DNA of 13,676 bases from NCBI GenBank assembly GCA_003554945.1, contig PWHN01000101.1:1-13676 (forward strand), given 5' to 3'. The DNA is from a bacterium. Lineage in GTDB: Bacteria > T1Sed10-126. Positions 989-13,676 of this stretch are shown piece after piece; the stretch's first letter is position 1, and the number at the start of each line of letters is the position of its first letter. The translations under genes and the position numbers were made by a program. A model generated the notes under the pieces. The model was not told the origin of the DNA and ran no database searches. It worked only from the letters and a program-made list of their open reading frames with translations.

Positions 989-1013
989 GTCATTCCCGCG
1001 GAAGCGGGAATCC
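989..1013 (-). repeat. GGATT-hairpin repeat, copy 1
   Basis: Perfect inverted repeat with arms ATTCCCGC and GCGGGAAT (992-999 and 1004-1011) and a 4-nt loop. Read on the minus strand the copy has the family flanks GGATT on the left and AATGAC on the right. It also fits the form ATTCCC-N8-GGGAAT known for Neisseria dRS3 repeats; this is a resemblance, not evidence of kinship. Confidence 0.85.
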
Positions 1014-1053
1014 AGTGACGTTAAATTTCTAACTGGCGAAGGTCAAAGTCACC

Positions 1054-1090
1054 GGATTGCCCAATCAAGTTGGGCAATGACGATCTTAGG
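1054..1090 (+). repeat. GGATT-hairpin repeat, copy 2, with tail GACGATCTTAGG
   Basis: Stem ATTGCCCAA (1056-1064) pairs perfectly with TTGGGCAAT (1070-1078) around loop TCAAG. The flanks are GGATT and AATGAC, followed by the tail CGATCTTAGG. The copy at 13382-13415 (minus) has the same loop and nearly the same tail but a different, still paired, stem. Confidence 0.85.
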
Positions 1091-1099
1091 GTCTGGTTT

Positions 1100-1129
1100 G
1101 CCCGGTTGCTACTCATATCAAGTCCGGGC
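1100..1129. repeat. Inverted repeat GCCCGG...CCGGGC, possible divergent hairpin copy
   Basis: Arms at 1100-1105 and 1124-1129 with an 18-nt loop. The loop ends in TCAAGT and the element is followed by ACGATGACC, which resembles the loop and right flank of the neighbouring GGATT-hairpin copy. It may be a degraded third member of that cluster. Confidence 0.5.
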
Positions 1130-1261
1130 ACGATGACCTATTGATAATGATGGCAAGGAGCAACCCAAAAATTCAATTGTGACTAAGCACCAGTGTATCT
1201 TTTAGCGAACTCTTTACTCGCAACTCCTTTTTCTATAGAGAGAAACCATTCTCCAAAGTCT

Positions 1262-4454: not shown

Positions 4455-4634
4455 TTATTCTCCCTGATATTGGAAGCCGCGAGAGGTTTCGTTGTCGACG
4501 GTTACATCAATTTCGTCCTGGGCCGTGTTTGCCTCATCGTCTTCGATTTCTACTTCAATGGTATATTCGCCGTCAGGAATGTTGTTGGTATTTCAGTCCA
4601 CTTTGGAGATTTTTTCATTCATCGTGATTGACCG
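4455..4634 (-). pseudogene. Decayed Ig-like C-terminal fragment downstream of the propeller/LRR gene
   Basis: Past the stop of the propeller/LRR gene at 4615, a different frame reads MNEKISKVD, then TGA (4593-4595), then NTNNIPDGEYTIEVEI and IDVTVDNE, ending in TAA at 4455. Bacterial Ig-like repeats typically show W-D-T...PDGxYT...D...N...VTVDN; here the TGA sits where that pattern has Trp (TGG). The fragment is in a different frame from the upstream gene (offset of one base) and also holds the TGA, so at least two lesions separate it from a complete gene. It is probably the broken end of a once longer surface protein, or a fragment left by recombination between paralogues. Confidence 0.6.
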
Positions 4635-6804
4635 TCCAGCCACGTTCAGCTTCTAACCAATCTGCATCGTCTTCGCCAGCGGCACTCGGGGCGGCATTAT
4701 CAGTTAGATCCACGCCAATGTTTTCAATATTCTCATTGTCTGCGGCAATTCTAAGATCAGCCAGCATGTTGTCGATGTCTTCTTGCTCAAGCTGATTAGA
4801 GCTGACATCAATTTGTGGAGTATCGCCTTCTTCCAGTGCTGTGGTGAACCCGGCAAACGCGCCGTCCTCATATCCGCTCAGGTCGTTGCCCCACAGTCCC
4901 AACTGCTGCAGGTTCATTAAATCCCCCAGTTCCCCTGGGATCTCTCCTGACAATTCATTTAAGCCTAAATCTAATTCCTCTAATTCTGCAAGATTTCCCA
5001 GAGTACCAGGAATTTCTCCATAGAATTCATTTCCATCAAGCCAGATTCTTTGCAGATTCTCTAAGAATCCAAGCTCAGAAGGTATATCAGCGGTGAGCGA
5101 ATTATCAGACCATTCCAGTGAAATAACCGCTTCAGGCTGATTGATCTGCACCGTGAAGTCCTTGGTGTCGGCTTCGCCTTCAAAATCATGGTCAATTGTA
5201 TTTGTATTTTCGTAGATAGTGTAATCAGTACCGTCCGCGTTGTAGACGATCCAGTTTATAGTCTCCTCTGCTCCTGTATCTACATCAATTGAAAGTGACA
5301 TTGTATCTTCTTCTATTGTCTGCCAGTTCAATTCCACAGGGGCCACTTCATATTCAATTTGACCGGTATTTCTCGTATCCCGGCCAAACTTGGGCCAGAG
5401 ACTATTCTGTTCTTGCAGTCCAGGTGCGGCTGTCTCTATCCCGTATAAATTACCGTCGCCGGAGCCAAAAGCGCCGAGGGTATCGGAAATATTCAGCGAA
5501 GAAGCTATCGCACGTCCGGTTTCTATTTTCCCCAATGCTTCTCCCTCAGAATTCACACCGTATAAATTACCGTCGGCGGAACCAACATAGACGTTTTCTT
5601 CCGAATCTACGGTAGGTGTAGCAGTTATCTGCTCGCCAGTTTCAAAGCTCCATTTTACCTCTATATTGTCGTCATCGTCTTTTTCAAGCGCATACAAGTT
5701 ACCGTCCCAGGAGCCAACGTAAGCGGCCCCTTCTCCAAATACAAAAGAAGAAGTTAGAGCTCCGCCGACTTGTTTATCAGCTATCAACTCACCGTTTAAC
5801 GGCTCTACCGCGTAAGCATATCCCTCTTCACAACCAAACACTAATTCATCAATATCAGCAAAAGCCGGCGAGGATTTAATCTCGCCCTCCGCCGAAAAAC
5901 TCCACTGGTATTCCCCACCGTCTTCCCCCGCACTGATTGCATACAGGTGGTTGTCCCAGCTACCAAAATAAACATTTTGCCCGTCTATTGCGGGCGAAGA
6001 AGTTATCCTGCCGTCGGTTTCATACTCCCACAGCTCATCGCCGTTTTCACCATCGATAGCATAAAGACTGCCGTCGGTAGAACCGACATAGACGATGCCA
6101 TCAGAATCGACTGCGGGTGAGGAAGTGATCATGCCGTCGGTTTCAAAAGTCCAATCCTGGGTAAATTCTTCACCATCGGTATCCAGCGCGTATACTTTTC
6201 CGTTAAAACTACCGACGTATACCCGGTCATCCGGCCCGACAACCGGCGAGGAAGTGACCGGTGTTCCTATATCCAGCGTATCTATTTTCTTGCCCTCCTC
6301 GTCGACAGCGTGGAGGACACCGTCCCGGCTGGCGGTGATGGTGACTCCATTAATCATGACGGGAGAAGCAGTGACAGCCGCGTCGGCTTCATACTCCCAG
6401 ACAGTGTCGTGTGAGTCGACGTCCTCGCGCGCCTGAGTTGCTTCTTCTTGATCGGAGGATTCATCGTAAGGGTCTTCAGGAGCTGCATCAGGATTATCGA
6501 GCCAGTAATCAACTACCATTTGTGGGAATTCAGGATCACCATCTTCACAATCAGGCTCCTCATCAGGATCCCATTCACATTCATAATTATCCCAGACACC
6601 ATGCCAGTGTTCGTTGGCCTCTTTGTCAAGATCATCGACTACATCTTCAACGGCGTCGACAGGGCCGAAATATATTCCGGCAAGTTCCTCTCCCGATTGT
6701 TCTATCAGCTCGTCGGCGCGACTGATATTGTACACCGGATAGGCTAAAGAACCGGCGAGAAGTATAAATATTAAGATAGCCGAAACAGCATAAAGTTTTT
6801 TCAT
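4615..6804 (-). CDS. Exported PQQ-type beta-propeller protein with leucine-rich repeats
   Basis: 729 residues, start ATG at 6804 with GGAGG 5 nt upstream. Residues 1-~23 form a signal peptide or N-terminal anchor. Residues ~30-130 are a very acidic linker with two Cys (76, 86). Residues ~134-458 hold eight propeller blades of the PQQ/quinoprotein type, each with SSPAVD-like and VYVGSxDGxLYAID-like strands, closed by WPKFGRDTRNTG (470-481), a motif common at the end of such propellers. Residues ~485-555 are a beta-rich, Ig-like stretch. Residues ~559-700 hold leucine-rich repeats, three of them regular 24-residue units with LxGEIPxxLG, followed by the cap-like GWTVNHDE. Nothing shows that it binds PQQ or is an enzyme; a binding or adhesive surface protein is likelier. 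It is last in the envelope gene row, and its 3' side shows decay. Confidence 0.85.
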   Translation of the reverse strand: MKKLYAVSAILIFILLAGSLAYPVYNISRADELIEQSGEELAGIYFGPVDAVEDVVDDLDKEANEHWHGVWDNYECEWDPDEEPDCEDGDPEFPQMVVDYWLDNPDAAPEDPYDESSDQEEATQAREDVDSHDTVWEYEADAAVTASPVMINGVTITASRDGVLHAVDEEGKKIDTLDIGTPVTSSPVVGPDDRVYVGSFNGKVYALDTDGEEFTQDWTFETDGMITSSPAVDSDGIVYVGSTDGSLYAIDGENGDELWEYETDGRITSSPAIDGQNVYFGSWDNHLYAISAGEDGGEYQWSFSAEGEIKSSPAFADIDELVFGCEEGYAYAVEPLNGELIADKQVGGALTSSFVFGEGAAYVGSWDGNLYALEKDDDDNIEVKWSFETGEQITATPTVDSEENVYVGSADGNLYGVNSEGEALGKIETGRAIASSLNISDTLGAFGSGDGNLYGIETAAPGLQEQNSLWPKFGRDTRNTGQIEYEVAPVELNWQTIEEDTMSLSIDVDTGAEETINWIVYNADGTDYTIYENTNTIDHDFEGEADTKDFTVQINQPEAVISLEWSDNSLTADIPSELGFLENLQRIWLDGNEFYGEIPGTLGNLAELEELDLGLNELSGEIPGELGDLMNLQQLGLWGNDLSGYEDGAFAGFTTALEEGDTPQIDVSSNQLEQEDIDNMLADLRIAADNENIENIGVDLTDNAAPSAAGEDDADWLEAERGWTVNHDE

Positions 6805-6931: not shown

Positions 6932-7762
6932 TTAAAAATGGAAATTTACGCTTGCGTTCATGATAAATTTCCAATCATCTGCTTCAACGGCTCCGCCGGA
7001 TAAATCGTCCTCCAGCTCAATGTAGTAGGGTCCCGTGTCTATATTGAAAGAGAAGCGGCGGCCAAAGTAGTGCTGCAAACCGAAAAAACCGCCGGCCATC
7101 CAGCCGTCTCCTTCGGTTAAATCTCCCTCGAACTCGCTGATGTAAAAGATATCGGCACCCCAGTATATGTTTCCACCTTCATAGGCGAAGGGATAGTGTG
7201 TGAACCGCGGACCGTAAAGAACGACGTCACCGCTGGCAAAACCACGCATTTCAGCACCAAAGCGTTCCCCCTGGTAGCCAACCGTAACTCCCGGGTAGGT
7301 AACACCAATCAGCAAGCGGCGGTCTCGCTGTGGATAAGTGGTGGGATTTTCCGATTCCGCGGACCACTCATCTAAACCAAAGCTGTCCAGGGCCACACCA
7401 GAAGACTCTTCAGCTTGACCGACAGCCGGAAACAGCGTCAAGGTGGCTGCCAGTAGGACTGCCAGTAACAGTATGAATACTCCCCGCCCCGCTGTTTTTC
7501 GGGATTCGGTAGTCGGTATTAACAAGGAGCGGGGGGCAGGGAGCGGGGCGCCGGGGGCAGAACCAAAGTCAAGACCATAAATCAAACCAGTCGCTACCCT
7601 CGGGAGAGCGGAATTTTGCAGCGCCCCCTGCTTTCTATTACCGTTTACGGACCTAAACCATGGATTCCGGGTCGCACTCCCTGCGGTCGTTTGCCCGGAA
7701 TGACGGCGGCTGGGAATTGAAGCCTCAGCAGTTGTTTGCTCGGAATGACGTGATTTATTCAA
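6932..7762 (-). CDS. Small outer-membrane beta-barrel protein, 5' end built of repeats, start uncertain
   Basis: 276 codons from a TTG at 7762 that overlaps the TGA of the FecR gene (TTGA). Residues ~94-116 are a signal peptide core (GVFILLLAVLLAATLTLFPA) with a likely cleavage after GQA. The mature ~160 residues alternate polar and aromatic positions in short strands (LLIGVTYPGVTVGY, NIYWGADIFYISEF, RRFSFNIDTGPYYIEL) and end in NASVNFHF; a terminal Phe is the usual outer-membrane insertion signal. The first ~90 codons have no protein-like character: they are the translation of dispersed repeats at 7640-7749 and of G-rich repeat-like DNA near 7525-7560. A TTG at 7525 would give a 197-residue protein with a normal signal peptide but has no Shine-Dalgarno. 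Either the start moved after repeat insertion or the extension is translated. Function unknown; it follows the FecR gene directly. Confidence 0.68.
   Translation of the reverse strand: MNKSRHSEQTTAEASIPSRRHSGQTTAGSATRNPWFRSVNGNRKQGALQNSALPRVATGLIYGLDFGSAPGAPLPAPRSLLIPTTESRKTAGRGVFILLLAVLLAATLTLFPAVGQAEESSGVALDSFGLDEWSAESENPTTYPQRDRRLLIGVTYPGVTVGYQGERFGAEMRGFASGDVVLYGPRFTHYPFAYEGGNIYWGADIFYISEFEGDLTEGDGWMAGGFFGLQHYFGRRFSFNIDTGPYYIELEDDLSGGAVEADDWKFIMNASVNFHF
7640..7749 (+). repeat. GGATT-hairpin repeat, copy 3 plus a half copy, inside a reading frame
   Basis: The full copy runs from GGATT at 7662 to AATGAC at 7704, with arms ATTCCGGG and CCCGGAAT and a 25-nt middle. A right half only (TTGCTCGGAATGACG) follows at 7736-7750. 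Upstream, ACCGTTTACGG at 7640-7650 matches the element that precedes other copies at 10429 and 13440. Read on the minus strand this DNA supplies codons for the N-terminal part of the small outer-membrane protein. Confidence 0.75.
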
Positions 7763-10320
7763 AAAGGATCAACCCCCCGGTAGCGAAAGACTGGACGATC
7801 GAGACCGTCTACCAGGTCACGGGCAGAGATAACGCGCACCTGTACATAGGACGGACTAACATCGACTATCTCTATCAGAGCAGTTAGCTGTTCTCCCCAC
7901 TCTTTGACAATATTAACACCAAACATCTCGCCCACCTCAATCCCCACTTCATCGTCATACCTATTTAAACCGGATGATATCGAACTCACGTCTGAGAAAT
8001 CAGAAGCAGTTAAACGCTTAATACCGCCATCTTCCACCTCACCACCAATTGCCAGCTTATTTACAATCATTGCCGGGTCAAAGGTTTCAGCGATGATATC
8101 ACCGGCAGCCGTATCATTGTAGGTGCGGAAATCCTCTATTGATATACTCCCCAGGTCATCAATTAAAATATCCTCGCGATTGAAGACATACATGTGCAGG
8201 GGAAAATCCTGCATTGACTGCAGTTTAAACTGACCGTCCTCCGCCCGGACGTAACTATTTTCAACATCAGAAGCGACCATGACAAAGGGCCGGTTGGCGT
8301 TATTATCCACACCACGCCACTCAAGCGAGTAATTCACTTCACCGCCCGTATGGCTGGAGATAAGCTGGTCGACATCATAGAAGACACTCAGATCACGAGC
8401 ATCCCTGAAAAAACCACGTAGAAAACTGCGGAAGTCGTAATAATCCTTCTCGCGGCCGCTCCGGGAGTCGCGGTAGTAAAAATCGTCATACCAGTATTCT
8501 GTCACCTGGCGCCGGTTCTCGTTTTCAATTTCGTCAAACATCTCCTCCATCTGACGGCGCAGCAGCGTGTTGAAAGTAATGTTTTCGTGAACAATCTCAT
8601 CCGGCTCATAGATATCACCAATCTCTCCCGCCTCGCTCCAGGCAACCAGTTCCAGCCTATCGTAAGTTACTTCACCGTCTGCAGGCAGCTCAATTCGCCA
8701 GTTTTCGTCTTCTCCCGCTGACTGCCAGTCACCGCCGTCATAACGATAGGCGACACCGGCTATGTCGGGCGGCGCCTCCGCTACCCCCTCAAGCAGAAGC
8801 TGACCACCTTCCAGGTCACCCTGGTAGGTATGGTAGGGAAAATCAAGGTCGTCATAACTACGTCCGGCCAACATTTCAACTTCTACCTCCACGTCTCCTT
8901 CCCTAAAATCAAACGGAGGAAAGGATGGTTCAACAATGTATTCAATCGGGCCAACAGAGACGGGGCCCCCTATTTCTGTGGAAGTCCAGGCAACTATTTC
9001 AAGCTCAAAGTCCGCGTCCTCGTCGGCCGGCAGGTTAAAATTCCAGTCTTCCGTTCCCTCAGCCGCCGTCCAATTCTCTTCTCCCGCCTGCCGGTAGGCC
9101 ACTCCTTCAACCGCCTCGTCTGCCTTAGCGCGGCCGCTAATGACTATTTCCTCTTCCTCAAACTGGTCGCCCGAGAGTTGAAAGGGAAAGCTAATCTCAT
9201 CATAAGAGATCCCGCCAATCTCAGTAATTTCTACCGGAACATCACCTTCATCAAGACCAGGAGGAATCACACCCTCGGGTTCGGGATGATCAAGCTCAAC
9301 CTGGAAGGGATAGGCACGCGAGCTGTTACCCAGCGAATCATGAGCTCTTACCCGGCCGTTAACTCGCTTTTCTTCACCAACTTCCGGAGGTTCAGCCTCA
9401 AGTTCTGCCGACCACTCTTCCAACCCCTCGACCGACAACTGTTCATCCCCGACCTGGACTTCAACTTCTTCAAGCTCCGCTTCATCTTCACGAGCTTCGG
9501 CAGTTCCGCTCAGCGTCAGGAGCTCCTCTTCTCTGTATTCTTTGCTTATGCGAAATACGCCCTCACCCGTCTGTTCCATCTTTTCCCCTTCCAGCTGCAA
9601 TTCATCAACAGCGGGGGGAAACTGAGCCCTGTCCCGATATTCGGAAAGCCGGCGCTCACTTTCTTCATCTATTTCTTCCGGTTCGTCGGGAGCTTCTTCA
9701 CCCGGACGCATTGAACTGCGCTGACGGGCTTCGATGATTTGCGAGCGCTCAGGTGCAGCACGGCTGGCAAACTCAAGCGAACCGGAGAGCACCGAGCAGG
9801 AAGTACTTTCGTCAATATCACACTGAAATACCGTGCCGCGGACTCCGGCTACAGAGTTAGGGGTGTTAATTTCAATTTCTGTCTCCATCTCCTCGTCACC
9901 GCGGTGGCGGGAGTTAATTTCGCCCTGATACATTTCAAGATCAATCTCGTTTTCAGTCACCGCATCCTCGGTCCTGTAACTCTCGAGCTCATTGACTTCC
10001 ATCTGACTGCCCATTGCCAGCTCCATGTGAGTTATTCCCGGGATGTTTAAGCTCACTTCACCATCGATAGCCTCGATCCGCGCCCCCGGTTGAAGCTCCT
10101 CGCCTTCCTCAAGTTGACGCGGTTTTGTATCTTCTTCTGTTGTTACCTTGACCCCCTCCTCTACCTCCAGAACTTCCAGCGCTACCTCCGGTTCCTCAAG
10201 CTGCTGACGCAGTTCTCCAAGAGCATCCTCCGGAGTTTCAACGGCCACTGCGGGGTAAATGACTGCCGCGAGTAACCAGCTAAAAGCAAGGACATAAAAA
10301 AGCAGATGTTTTAGCTTCAT
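7759..10320 (-). CDS. Large exported FecR-domain protein with Ig-like modules and an NTF2-like domain
   Basis: 853 residues from the ATG at 10320 (MKLKHLLFYVLAFSWLLAAV, a normal signal peptide). An upstream TTG at 10377 lies in repeat DNA and would spoil the signal peptide. Residues ~48-190 are a FecR domain: ELQPGARI, a Gly-rich turn region, then TPNSVAGVRGTVF (153-165), the FecR hallmark. Residues ~240-345, 358-463 and 475-578 are three Ig-like modules; the last two are clear repeats of each other (GDVPVEI/GDVEVEV, ISYDEISFPF/RSYDDLDFPY, GVAYR, ELPADGE-type strands, VAW). Residues ~585-705 look NTF2-like (VTEYWYDDFYYRD...DFRSFLRGFFRDARDLSVF) and match the lipoprotein at 12269-12769. The last ~130 residues are unassigned. 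There is no membrane anchor or FecI partner nearby, so it is probably a periplasmic or surface component rather than an anti-sigma factor. It contains Cys167 and Cys175, which could pair. Confidence 0.84.
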   Translation of the reverse strand: MKLKHLLFYVLAFSWLLAAVIYPAVAVETPEDALGELRQQLEEPEVALEVLEVEEGVKVTTEEDTKPRQLEEGEELQPGARIEAIDGEVSLNIPGITHMELAMGSQMEVNELESYRTEDAVTENEIDLEMYQGEINSRHRGDEEMETEIEINTPNSVAGVRGTVFQCDIDESTSCSVLSGSLEFASRAAPERSQIIEARQRSSMRPGEEAPDEPEEIDEESERRLSEYRDRAQFPPAVDELQLEGEKMEQTGEGVFRISKEYREEELLTLSGTAEAREDEAELEEVEVQVGDEQLSVEGLEEWSAELEAEPPEVGEEKRVNGRVRAHDSLGNSSRAYPFQVELDHPEPEGVIPPGLDEGDVPVEITEIGGISYDEISFPFQLSGDQFEEEEIVISGRAKADEAVEGVAYRQAGEENWTAAEGTEDWNFNLPADEDADFELEIVAWTSTEIGGPVSVGPIEYIVEPSFPPFDFREGDVEVEVEMLAGRSYDDLDFPYHTYQGDLEGGQLLLEGVAEAPPDIAGVAYRYDGGDWQSAGEDENWRIELPADGEVTYDRLELVAWSEAGEIGDIYEPDEIVHENITFNTLLRRQMEEMFDEIENENRRQVTEYWYDDFYYRDSRSGREKDYYDFRSFLRGFFRDARDLSVFYDVDQLISSHTGGEVNYSLEWRGVDNNANRPFVMVASDVENSYVRAEDGQFKLQSMQDFPLHMYVFNREDILIDDLGSISIEDFRTYNDTAAGDIIAETFDPAMIVNKLAIGGEVEDGGIKRLTASDFSDVSSISSGLNRYDDEVGIEVGEMFGVNIVKEWGEQLTALIEIVDVSPSYVQVRVISARDLVDGLDRPVFRYRGVDPF

Positions 10321-10375
10321 AAATCTTCTAAATACCAACCTTCCAAAAAACTTATCAGTTCTTGACTGACGTCCC

Positions 10376-10546
10376 AAGCGTGACTTCGGGGCCCGTCCCG
10401 CAATCGATTTTTACGGTCTTGAACAATAACCGTAAATATTTCAAGATGGATTCCGGCTCGGGGGCCGGAATGACAAGTAATTCAAGATGGATTCCGGGTC
10501 GCGCCCCGCCGGTTCTTGAGAACCAACGGGGCTTGCCTGAAATTAC
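10376..10546 (+). repeat. Composite A-B-C repeat with an extra hairpin copy, upstream of the FecR gene
   Basis: Three modules in order: A, a worn hairpin ending CCCGCAATCGATTTTT (to ~10411); B, perfect arms TTTACGGT and ACCGTAAA (10410-10417, 10429-10436); C, a GGATT-hairpin (10448-10474) with stem ATTCCGGC/GCCGGAAT, preceded by TTCAAGAT. A second C copy (10489-10546) carries a nested hairpin (CCCCG/CGGGG around GGTTCT-TG-AGAACC) and a mutated right end. The A-B-C order is repeated at 13382-13467. The block fills most of the 279 bp between the large barrel gene and the FecR gene. Confidence 0.8.
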
Positions 10547-13238: not shown

Positions 13239-13246
13239 CTTCAGAT

Positions 13247-13288
13247 GGATTCTGGCTCGGAGGGGGAGTGCTCGATGGGGCGATGGGG
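13247..13288 (+). repeat. Left-half GGATT element and CGATGGGG tandem
   Basis: GGATTCTGGCTCGG (13247-13260) is the left half of a GGATT-hairpin with no right half. It is followed after a short gap by two head-to-tail CGATGGGG units (13273-13288). Confidence 0.55.
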
Positions 13289-13329: not shown

Positions 13330-13356
13330 GGATTCCGGCTCGGAGGCCGGAATGAC
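13330..13356 (+). repeat. GGATT-hairpin repeat, intact copy
   Basis: Stem ATTCCGGC pairs with GCCGGAAT around TCGGAG, with flanks TTCAAGAT-GGATT and AATGAC. It differs from the copy at 10448-10474 by one loop base. Confidence 0.85.
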
Positions 13357-13381
13357 GTCAAATTCAAGAGCGGGCTTGACC

Positions 13382-13467
13382 TAAAGATCGTCATTGCGGG
13401 CTTGACCCGCAATCCATTTTTAACGGGTTTGAAAGATAACCGTTTAAAGTTCAAGCTGGATTCCAGA
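13382..13467 (+). repeat. Composite A-B-C repeat, second copy
   Basis: Module A: ATTGCGGG and CCCGCAAT (13393-13400, 13405-13412) with loop TCAAG on the minus strand. Module B: AACGGGTT...AACCGTT (about 13422-13443). Module C: left half only, TTCAAGCTGGATTCCAG (13450-13466). By eye the segment from CCCGCAATC onward is about 80% identical over roughly 60 bp to the copy at 10396-10458, with the same order and orientation. Confidence 0.78.
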
Positions 13468-13500
13468 ATATTAGCAGCGTTTTTTGTGGTCTAACCCGGA

Positions 13501-13531
13501 TAATTCCCGACAGCACAACTGTCGTGAATTA
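13501..13531. repeat. 13-bp inverted repeat, one mismatch
   Basis: TAATTCCCGACAG (13501-13513) pairs with CTGTCGTGAATTA (13519-13531) at 12 of 13 positions around loop CACAA. No T-run follows on either strand, so it is not a typical terminator; a REP-like element is the closest description. Confidence 0.6.
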
Positions 13532-13676
13532 TTCGCCCGTAGGGGCGCATTCAAGCGAAGCCGGAATTTTGATTCAAAACCATTATACGGCTTTAAAACA
13601 TTGGTTTCAATGCTATACACAATAATTAATCATCTCGATTGAAGGCGCGGTTAACCGAGCACTCAAGCTGTTGCCA

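Follow-up and report, generated by a model that had tools for sequence, protein, structure and literature searches.

The hairpin repeats in the window (the whole stretch of 13,676 nucleotides that was analysed) are almost certainly CGTC-tagged REP elements, which are short non-autonomous DNA repeats. There are ~300 copies in the genome, and many of these form REPIN-like heterodimers in head-to-head orientation. Published CGTC REPs carry CGTC unpaired at one end and a CCA tail at the other; their stems of 8–9 bp start from A-T pairs, and their loops have 4–5 nt (PMC3733652). They occur as head-to-head dimers, often of unlike partners, and have no associated transposase (Di Nocera, De Gregorio and Rocco 2013, PMC3733652). 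The families described are CGTC-1 to CGTC-4, the neisserial dRS3 and the rickettsial RPE-4 and RPE-6 repeats are of the same kind, and copies in the 2013 survey were mostly downstream of genes (PMC3733652).

The genome of this uncultured bacterium (G000) amounts to 2.2 Mb over 121 contigs, and in it the pattern GGATT-N(10-40)-AATGAC has 306 matches (162+144), a density of ~1 per 7 kb, while a reversed control has 13 (8+5). The copies are thus not few, as the original prediction of REP-type or RNA hairpins with covarying stems required. A detailed sample of 485 kb of stretches yielded 116 hairpin copies, or 115 without one chance match, and these were sorted by length and stem into six subfamilies.

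Subfamily A: 25 nt, ATTCCCGC stem, 4-nt loop
Subfamily B: 27 nt, ATTCCGGC stem, loop TCGNNG
Subfamily C: 26 nt, ATTGCGGG stem, loop TCAAG
Subfamily D: 28 nt, 9-bp stems, loop TCAAG
Subfamily E: mostly 43 nt, long loop of ~22 nt
Subfamily F: 27 nt, ATTGCGG[GA], loop TCGNNG

Tag, tail, stem, loop sizes and dimer geometry all correspond to those published for CGTC-tagged REPs, and the REP-type assignment that had been suggested stands. AATGAC is followed mainly by G in all subfamilies but A, which gives the unpaired CGTC; subfamily A often reads TGTC, a published variant of the tag. On the folding strand the unpaired tag lies at the 5' foot of the hairpin. The stems of 8–9 bp start with ATT/AAT and include compensated variants. 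The loops of A, C and D have 4–5 nt, those of B and F have 6 nt and that of E ~22 nt; exceptions to the 4–5 nt loop are published. Most copies carry a T ahead of GGATT (i.e. AATCCA), which corresponds to the CCA tail. Beyond the CGTC tag there is a weak consensus, GANCGTTNGNTCAAG, over ~15 nt, after which conservation is gone. Loop and tail had been described as fixed, and this holds within a subfamily; across subfamilies it fails, with TCAAG, TCGNNG, 4-nt and ~22-nt loops. A literature search with the letters of the repeat sequence gave no relevant match.

The window contains the following features.

989–1013, minus strand: subfamily A CGTC REP, stem ATTCCCGC/GCGGGAAT of 8 bp, 4-nt loop; left half of a head-to-head heterodimer
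1014–1053, no strand: heterodimer spacer of 40 bp with pairable ends AGTGAC and GTCACC; partly conserved among other A-D pairs
1054–1081, plus strand: subfamily D CGTC REP, stem ATTGCCCAA/TTGGGCAAT of 9 bp, loop TCAAG; right half of the heterodimer
1082–1091, plus strand: outer flank GATCTTAGGG past the CGTC tag, originally described as the tail
1095–1137, plus strand: decayed D-like copy GGTTTGCCCGG...TCAAGTCCGGGCACGATGAC with extra stem-loop bases (direct reading)
7662–7704, plus strand: subfamily E CGTC REP with long loop, within a doubtful N-terminal extension of the ORF at 6932–7762
10448–10474, plus strand: subfamily B CGTC REP, stem ATTCCGGC/GCCGGAAT, loop TCGGGG
10489–10546, plus strand: decayed long-loop (E-like) copy adjoining the B copy, 41 bp register
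13243–13263, plus strand: half of a subfamily B copy, consisting of its left arm (direct reading)
13330–13356, plus strand: subfamily B CGTC REP; forms a pair with the C copy in which the tags point inward
13390–13415, minus strand: subfamily C CGTC REP, stem ATTGCGGG/CCCGCAAT, loop TCAAG; outer flank 13379–13389

The copy at 1054–1081 (plus strand) reads GGATTGCCCAATCAAGTTGGGCAATGAC, then GATCTTAGGG, and the copy at 13390–13415 (minus strand) reads GGATTGCGGGTCAAGCCCGCAATGAC, then GATCTTTAGG. The other stems quoted in the original prediction were located at 989–1013 (minus), 10448–10474 (plus) and 13330–13356 (plus), in addition to the long-loop copy at 7662–7704 (plus). The span 989–1129, first reported as a single feature, is a composite of an A copy (minus), the 40-bp spacer, a D copy (plus) and the decayed D-like third copy. 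Elsewhere in the window, 4615–6804 and 7759–10377 encode large proteins predicted to lie at the surface; one is a PQQ-type beta-propeller that also has leucine-rich repeats, and the other combines a FecR domain with Ig-like repeats.

The copies at 989–1013 (minus) and 1054–1081 (plus) form one REPIN-like heterodimer, consisting of two unlike hairpins with CGTC tags outward and a partly conserved spacer. Alone, the A copy folds at –9.0 kcal/mol (z –4.6) and the D copy at –9.7 kcal/mol (z –4.4). A cloverleaf-like fold of the complete heterodimer on one strand contains both hairpins and a spacer stem, at –22.3 kcal/mol (z –4.7). The arrangement recurs in the 485-kb sample, where the CGTC tags point outward in 11 of 12 A-D pairs and inward in one (P = 2e-6 against 25%). 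Over all 46 close pairs, 24 are outward, 7 inward and 15 tandem (outward P = 7e-5). The sequences GTTGAATTT and GTCAACGTCAAAGYCACTGG are common to the spacers of several A-D pairs, and the two tails CCAGTGAC and GTCACCGG are able to pair. Outside the hairpin, conservation continues for ~15–20 nt on each side and then stops, so that the unit has defined edges in otherwise unrelated intergenic DNA.

Other palindromic sequences are found in this genome. A second palindromic repeat (CCCCCCTTTGTCTTTCCCCCCTTCAAGGGGGGAAAGACAAAGGGGGG and variants; ~22 core matches in 485 kb, both strands counted) lies within the spacer of several REP dimers (L052:1134–1223, L097:3532–3620, L094:2503–2589 and L046:5900–5988). 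Similar dimers lack it (L039:16086–16195 and L097:16900–16993), which indicates a nested insertion. A long hairpin, (C)GAATTATTC[AC]CGACAG-N5-CTGTCGTGAATAATTCG with a GGGGCG motif after it, is also repeated, occurring at 13500–13540 of the window, at L034:2365–2403, at the start of L042, and near the RAYT gene of contig C14. The perfect palindrome TGATTAATTCATCAGCTGATGAATTAATCA, followed by CCCGTAGGG, is found near contig ends (L055:18172–18202, L087:3879–3909 and L088:16789–16819).

Covariation was tested inside subfamilies, because differences between subfamilies are by themselves weak evidence; the copies compared are paralogs of unknown relatedness. Among the 22 distinct sequences of the 28-nt subfamily D, pairing holds in 96% of stem cells, compared with 85% in shuffled sequence and 22–43% when the partner is slid. 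There are 24 doubly changed cells where 7.3 are expected, a value reached by 0 of 500 shuffles, and double changes fall in five of the nine stem pairs. In the 27-nt B/F set 97% of cells are paired, with 29 doubly changed cells against 11.8 expected (0 of 500 shuffles). The number of pairs with double changes and the number of pair types show no significant excess over shuffles, so the strength of the covariation rests on the cells and the score. The claims that the arms change together and that stem differences pair better than shuffled sequence are both confirmed. These results show that the hairpin is conserved as a structure and that the folded form is what is kept; covariation does not tell the cause.

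Part of the reason for this is that compensated stems also arise when replication switches template from one arm of a palindrome to the other (PMC8794818), so that such stems alone are no proof of selection. The repeats could accordingly be old REPs undergoing passive decay under mutation bias, with arms matched by template switching (quasipalindrome correction) and with neither current mobility nor selection on the fold. Template switching does create and maintain perfect hairpins (PMC8794818), the changes in subfamily D affect neighbouring pairs (GG/CC to AA/TT), and an active mobiliser was not found. However, the loop, the CGTC tag and the tail are also conserved within subfamilies, and the dimers retain both partner type and orientation; template switching alone explains neither these features nor the copy number, and we consider this account unlikely. 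A founder effect, by which six unrelated palindromic repeats mimic covariation when pooled, is very improbable. Much of the contrast first noticed is indeed between subfamilies (C versus D, A versus B), but compensation is found within D alone, where several distinct fully paired stems share the same loop.

Genomic location bears on whether the hairpins instead act as RNA, in the form of terminators, mRNA stabilisers or riboregulators whose pairing is kept by selection on the transcript. The compensatory changes include a few G-U cells, the majority of copies lie between genes read one way, and C and F copies often have an A-run, i.e. T on the CGTC strand after the hairpin. Against this, no subfamily is oriented relative to neighbouring genes (F/C 9:9, B 13:9, A 6:4, D 6:7), and unidirectional, divergent and convergent gaps are occupied to about the extent expected from their length. 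The region 780–1280 showed no terminator-like site, no Rfam family matches above its gathering score within the window, and wobble pairs versus A-C mismatches (12 versus 7) give no clear strand preference. Only 3 of 115 copies are inside ORFs of at least 170 aa, although such ORFs (from simple ORF calling, no gene finder) make up 76% of the sample. Location, strand neutrality and the missing terminators are more in keeping with mobile, non-autonomous hairpins of DNA than with elements that act as RNA. The RNA structure offered as an alternative in the original prediction is therefore disfavoured and, in our judgement, quite improbable.

The explanation as non-autonomous CGTC REPs, trans-copied dimers included, is as a whole the probable one. 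It is supported by the copy number (306 versus 13), the covariation, the stem, loop (A, C and D), tail and tag features shared with published CGTC REPs, the dimer geometry, the conserved spacers, the edges and the avoidance of ORFs, as well as by the absence of A-type copies from a sister genus and the presence in this genome of TnpAREP-like proteins with HUH and Tyr motifs. Counted against it are that neither movement nor an empty site was observed (the sister genome is not syntenic here), that no transposase gene is flanked by the repeats, and that genomes with 117, 71 and 65 copies have no TnpAREP-like gene. The copies sampled in one of these (G184) are single rather than dimeric and often in ORFs (6 of 27), which also counts against it. 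In the sister genus an ortholog of the adenosine deaminase is present (68% identity) in a locus that carries no A-type copies, and its neighbours differ.

The 2013 survey did not settle which agent spreads CGTC REPs (PMC3733652). The dimer may be copied whole while folded as a single strand. The probable agent would be a single-strand nuclease or transposase that recognises hairpins and acts in trans, in the way that RAYT/TnpAREP handles GTAG REPs. We lean slightly towards such trans-mobilisation of a single-strand hairpin. The candidate partners are six TnpAREP-type (RAYT-type HUH) proteins found in this genome, five by PF01797 and the sixth (C83) by profile. The five that were aligned have HUH and Tyr motifs and a C-terminal HTH, and three of these score above cut-off for Bac_DnaA_C. 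That one of the six mobilises the repeats is a doubtful proposition. A shade more doubtful is that CGTC REPs in general are mobilised in trans by TnpAREP, perhaps of subclass 2.1, as two orphans (a repeat with no known transposase and a protein with no known REP) that belong together and are never chromosomally linked.

None of 36 Y1 loci (6 from this genome, 27 from ten other CGTC-carrying genomes and 3 from the sister genus), some of which end at contig ends, is flanked by CGTC REPs. In this genome the nearest CGTC copy is ~1 kb from a RAYT gene and on one side only. At one copy per 7 kb, ~2 chance neighbours are expected around these RAYT genes; given this small number and the contig-end cuts, the missing flanks indicate that there is no REPtron structure rather than avoidance. 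Genes that do have CGTC REPs on both sides encode ordinary enzymes, a FecR protein and one HTH protein, and no transposase. GTAG-type repeats were considered as RAYT partners and rejected, since GTAGGGGCG is a rare sequence, with 4 occurrences in 485 kb, and the RAYT loci do not contain it.

An exploratory co-occurrence comparison covered 290 genomes (~223 families), of which 52 have A-type copies. PF01797 is present in 45 of these 52 carriers and in 124 of the 238 others (P = 2e-6), with the IS110 control at 19/52 versus 64/238 (P = 0.18). A TnpAREP profile, cut at 1e-20 or better because weaker matches are probably DnaA, gives 37/52 versus 71/238 (P = 6e-8), although the profile was built in part from CGTC-carrying genomes in the set and could favour the link. 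Full-length subclass-2.1-like genes are found in 21/52 versus 36/238 (P = 1.5e-4); in all of these comparisons the E-value cuts were picked after the table was seen and the counts are uncorrected for phylogeny. The odds ratios with A-type copies (3.8 for subclass 2.1, 2.6 for other TnpAREP-like genes and 5.8 for any) do not single out subclass 2.1. The link of A-type copies to TnpAREP-like genes holds for whole genomes (odds ratio ~6) but not for position. A TnpAREP-like gene is absent from 15 of the 52 carriers, including G184 (117 copies), G275 (71) and G282 (65), so that no obligate partner is demonstrated and present-day TnpAREP is not required for keeping large copy numbers. In G095, G145, G184, G227, G275 and G282, 11–117 A-type repeats occur where a TnpAREP-like gene is absent. 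The RAYT or IS200 partner originally proposed is thus upheld in that RAYT-type genes are present and co-occur with the repeats across bacteria; it is not upheld at the level of flanked loci or in several repeat-rich genomes.

Among known systems, GTAG REPs with their RAYT (REPIN/BIME) share the inverted hairpin pair with the tag at the 5' foot and pointing outward, the high intergenic copy number, and TnpAREP-type proteins in the same genome. They differ in the tag, which here is CGTC rather than GTAG/GTGG, and in the REPtron arrangement, which is seen at no Y1 gene examined. The proteins of this genome (~286–321 aa, with HUH, Tyr and C-terminal HTH) resemble TnpAY1 subclass 2.1 (group 1 RAYT, DnaA-like C-terminal HTH). 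That subclass is reported without flanking REP-like sequences (PMC6006769), and the genes here also lack flanking REPs. Compared with published CGTC REPs, subfamily A resembles CGTC-1, C resembles CGTC-2 and D resembles CGTC-3, and the compensated stem variants, the mostly unlike head-to-head partners and the absence of an adjacent transposase are shared. Unlike those REPs, the present set has two further loop classes (6-nt TCGNNG in B/F and ~22-nt in E) and no preference for sites downstream of genes. It also occurs in a host lineage for which no close named relative was found; the best matches of its adenosine deaminase are at 50–58%, in FCB-group and other bacteria. The repeats add to the CGTC REPs a new example that is well formed though ordinary, and that was recognised correctly from the sequence letters. 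What deserves further attention is the mobiliser of CGTC REPs and the genome-level TnpAREP link, which makes the pairing of CGTC REPs with TnpAREP a concrete, testable candidate.
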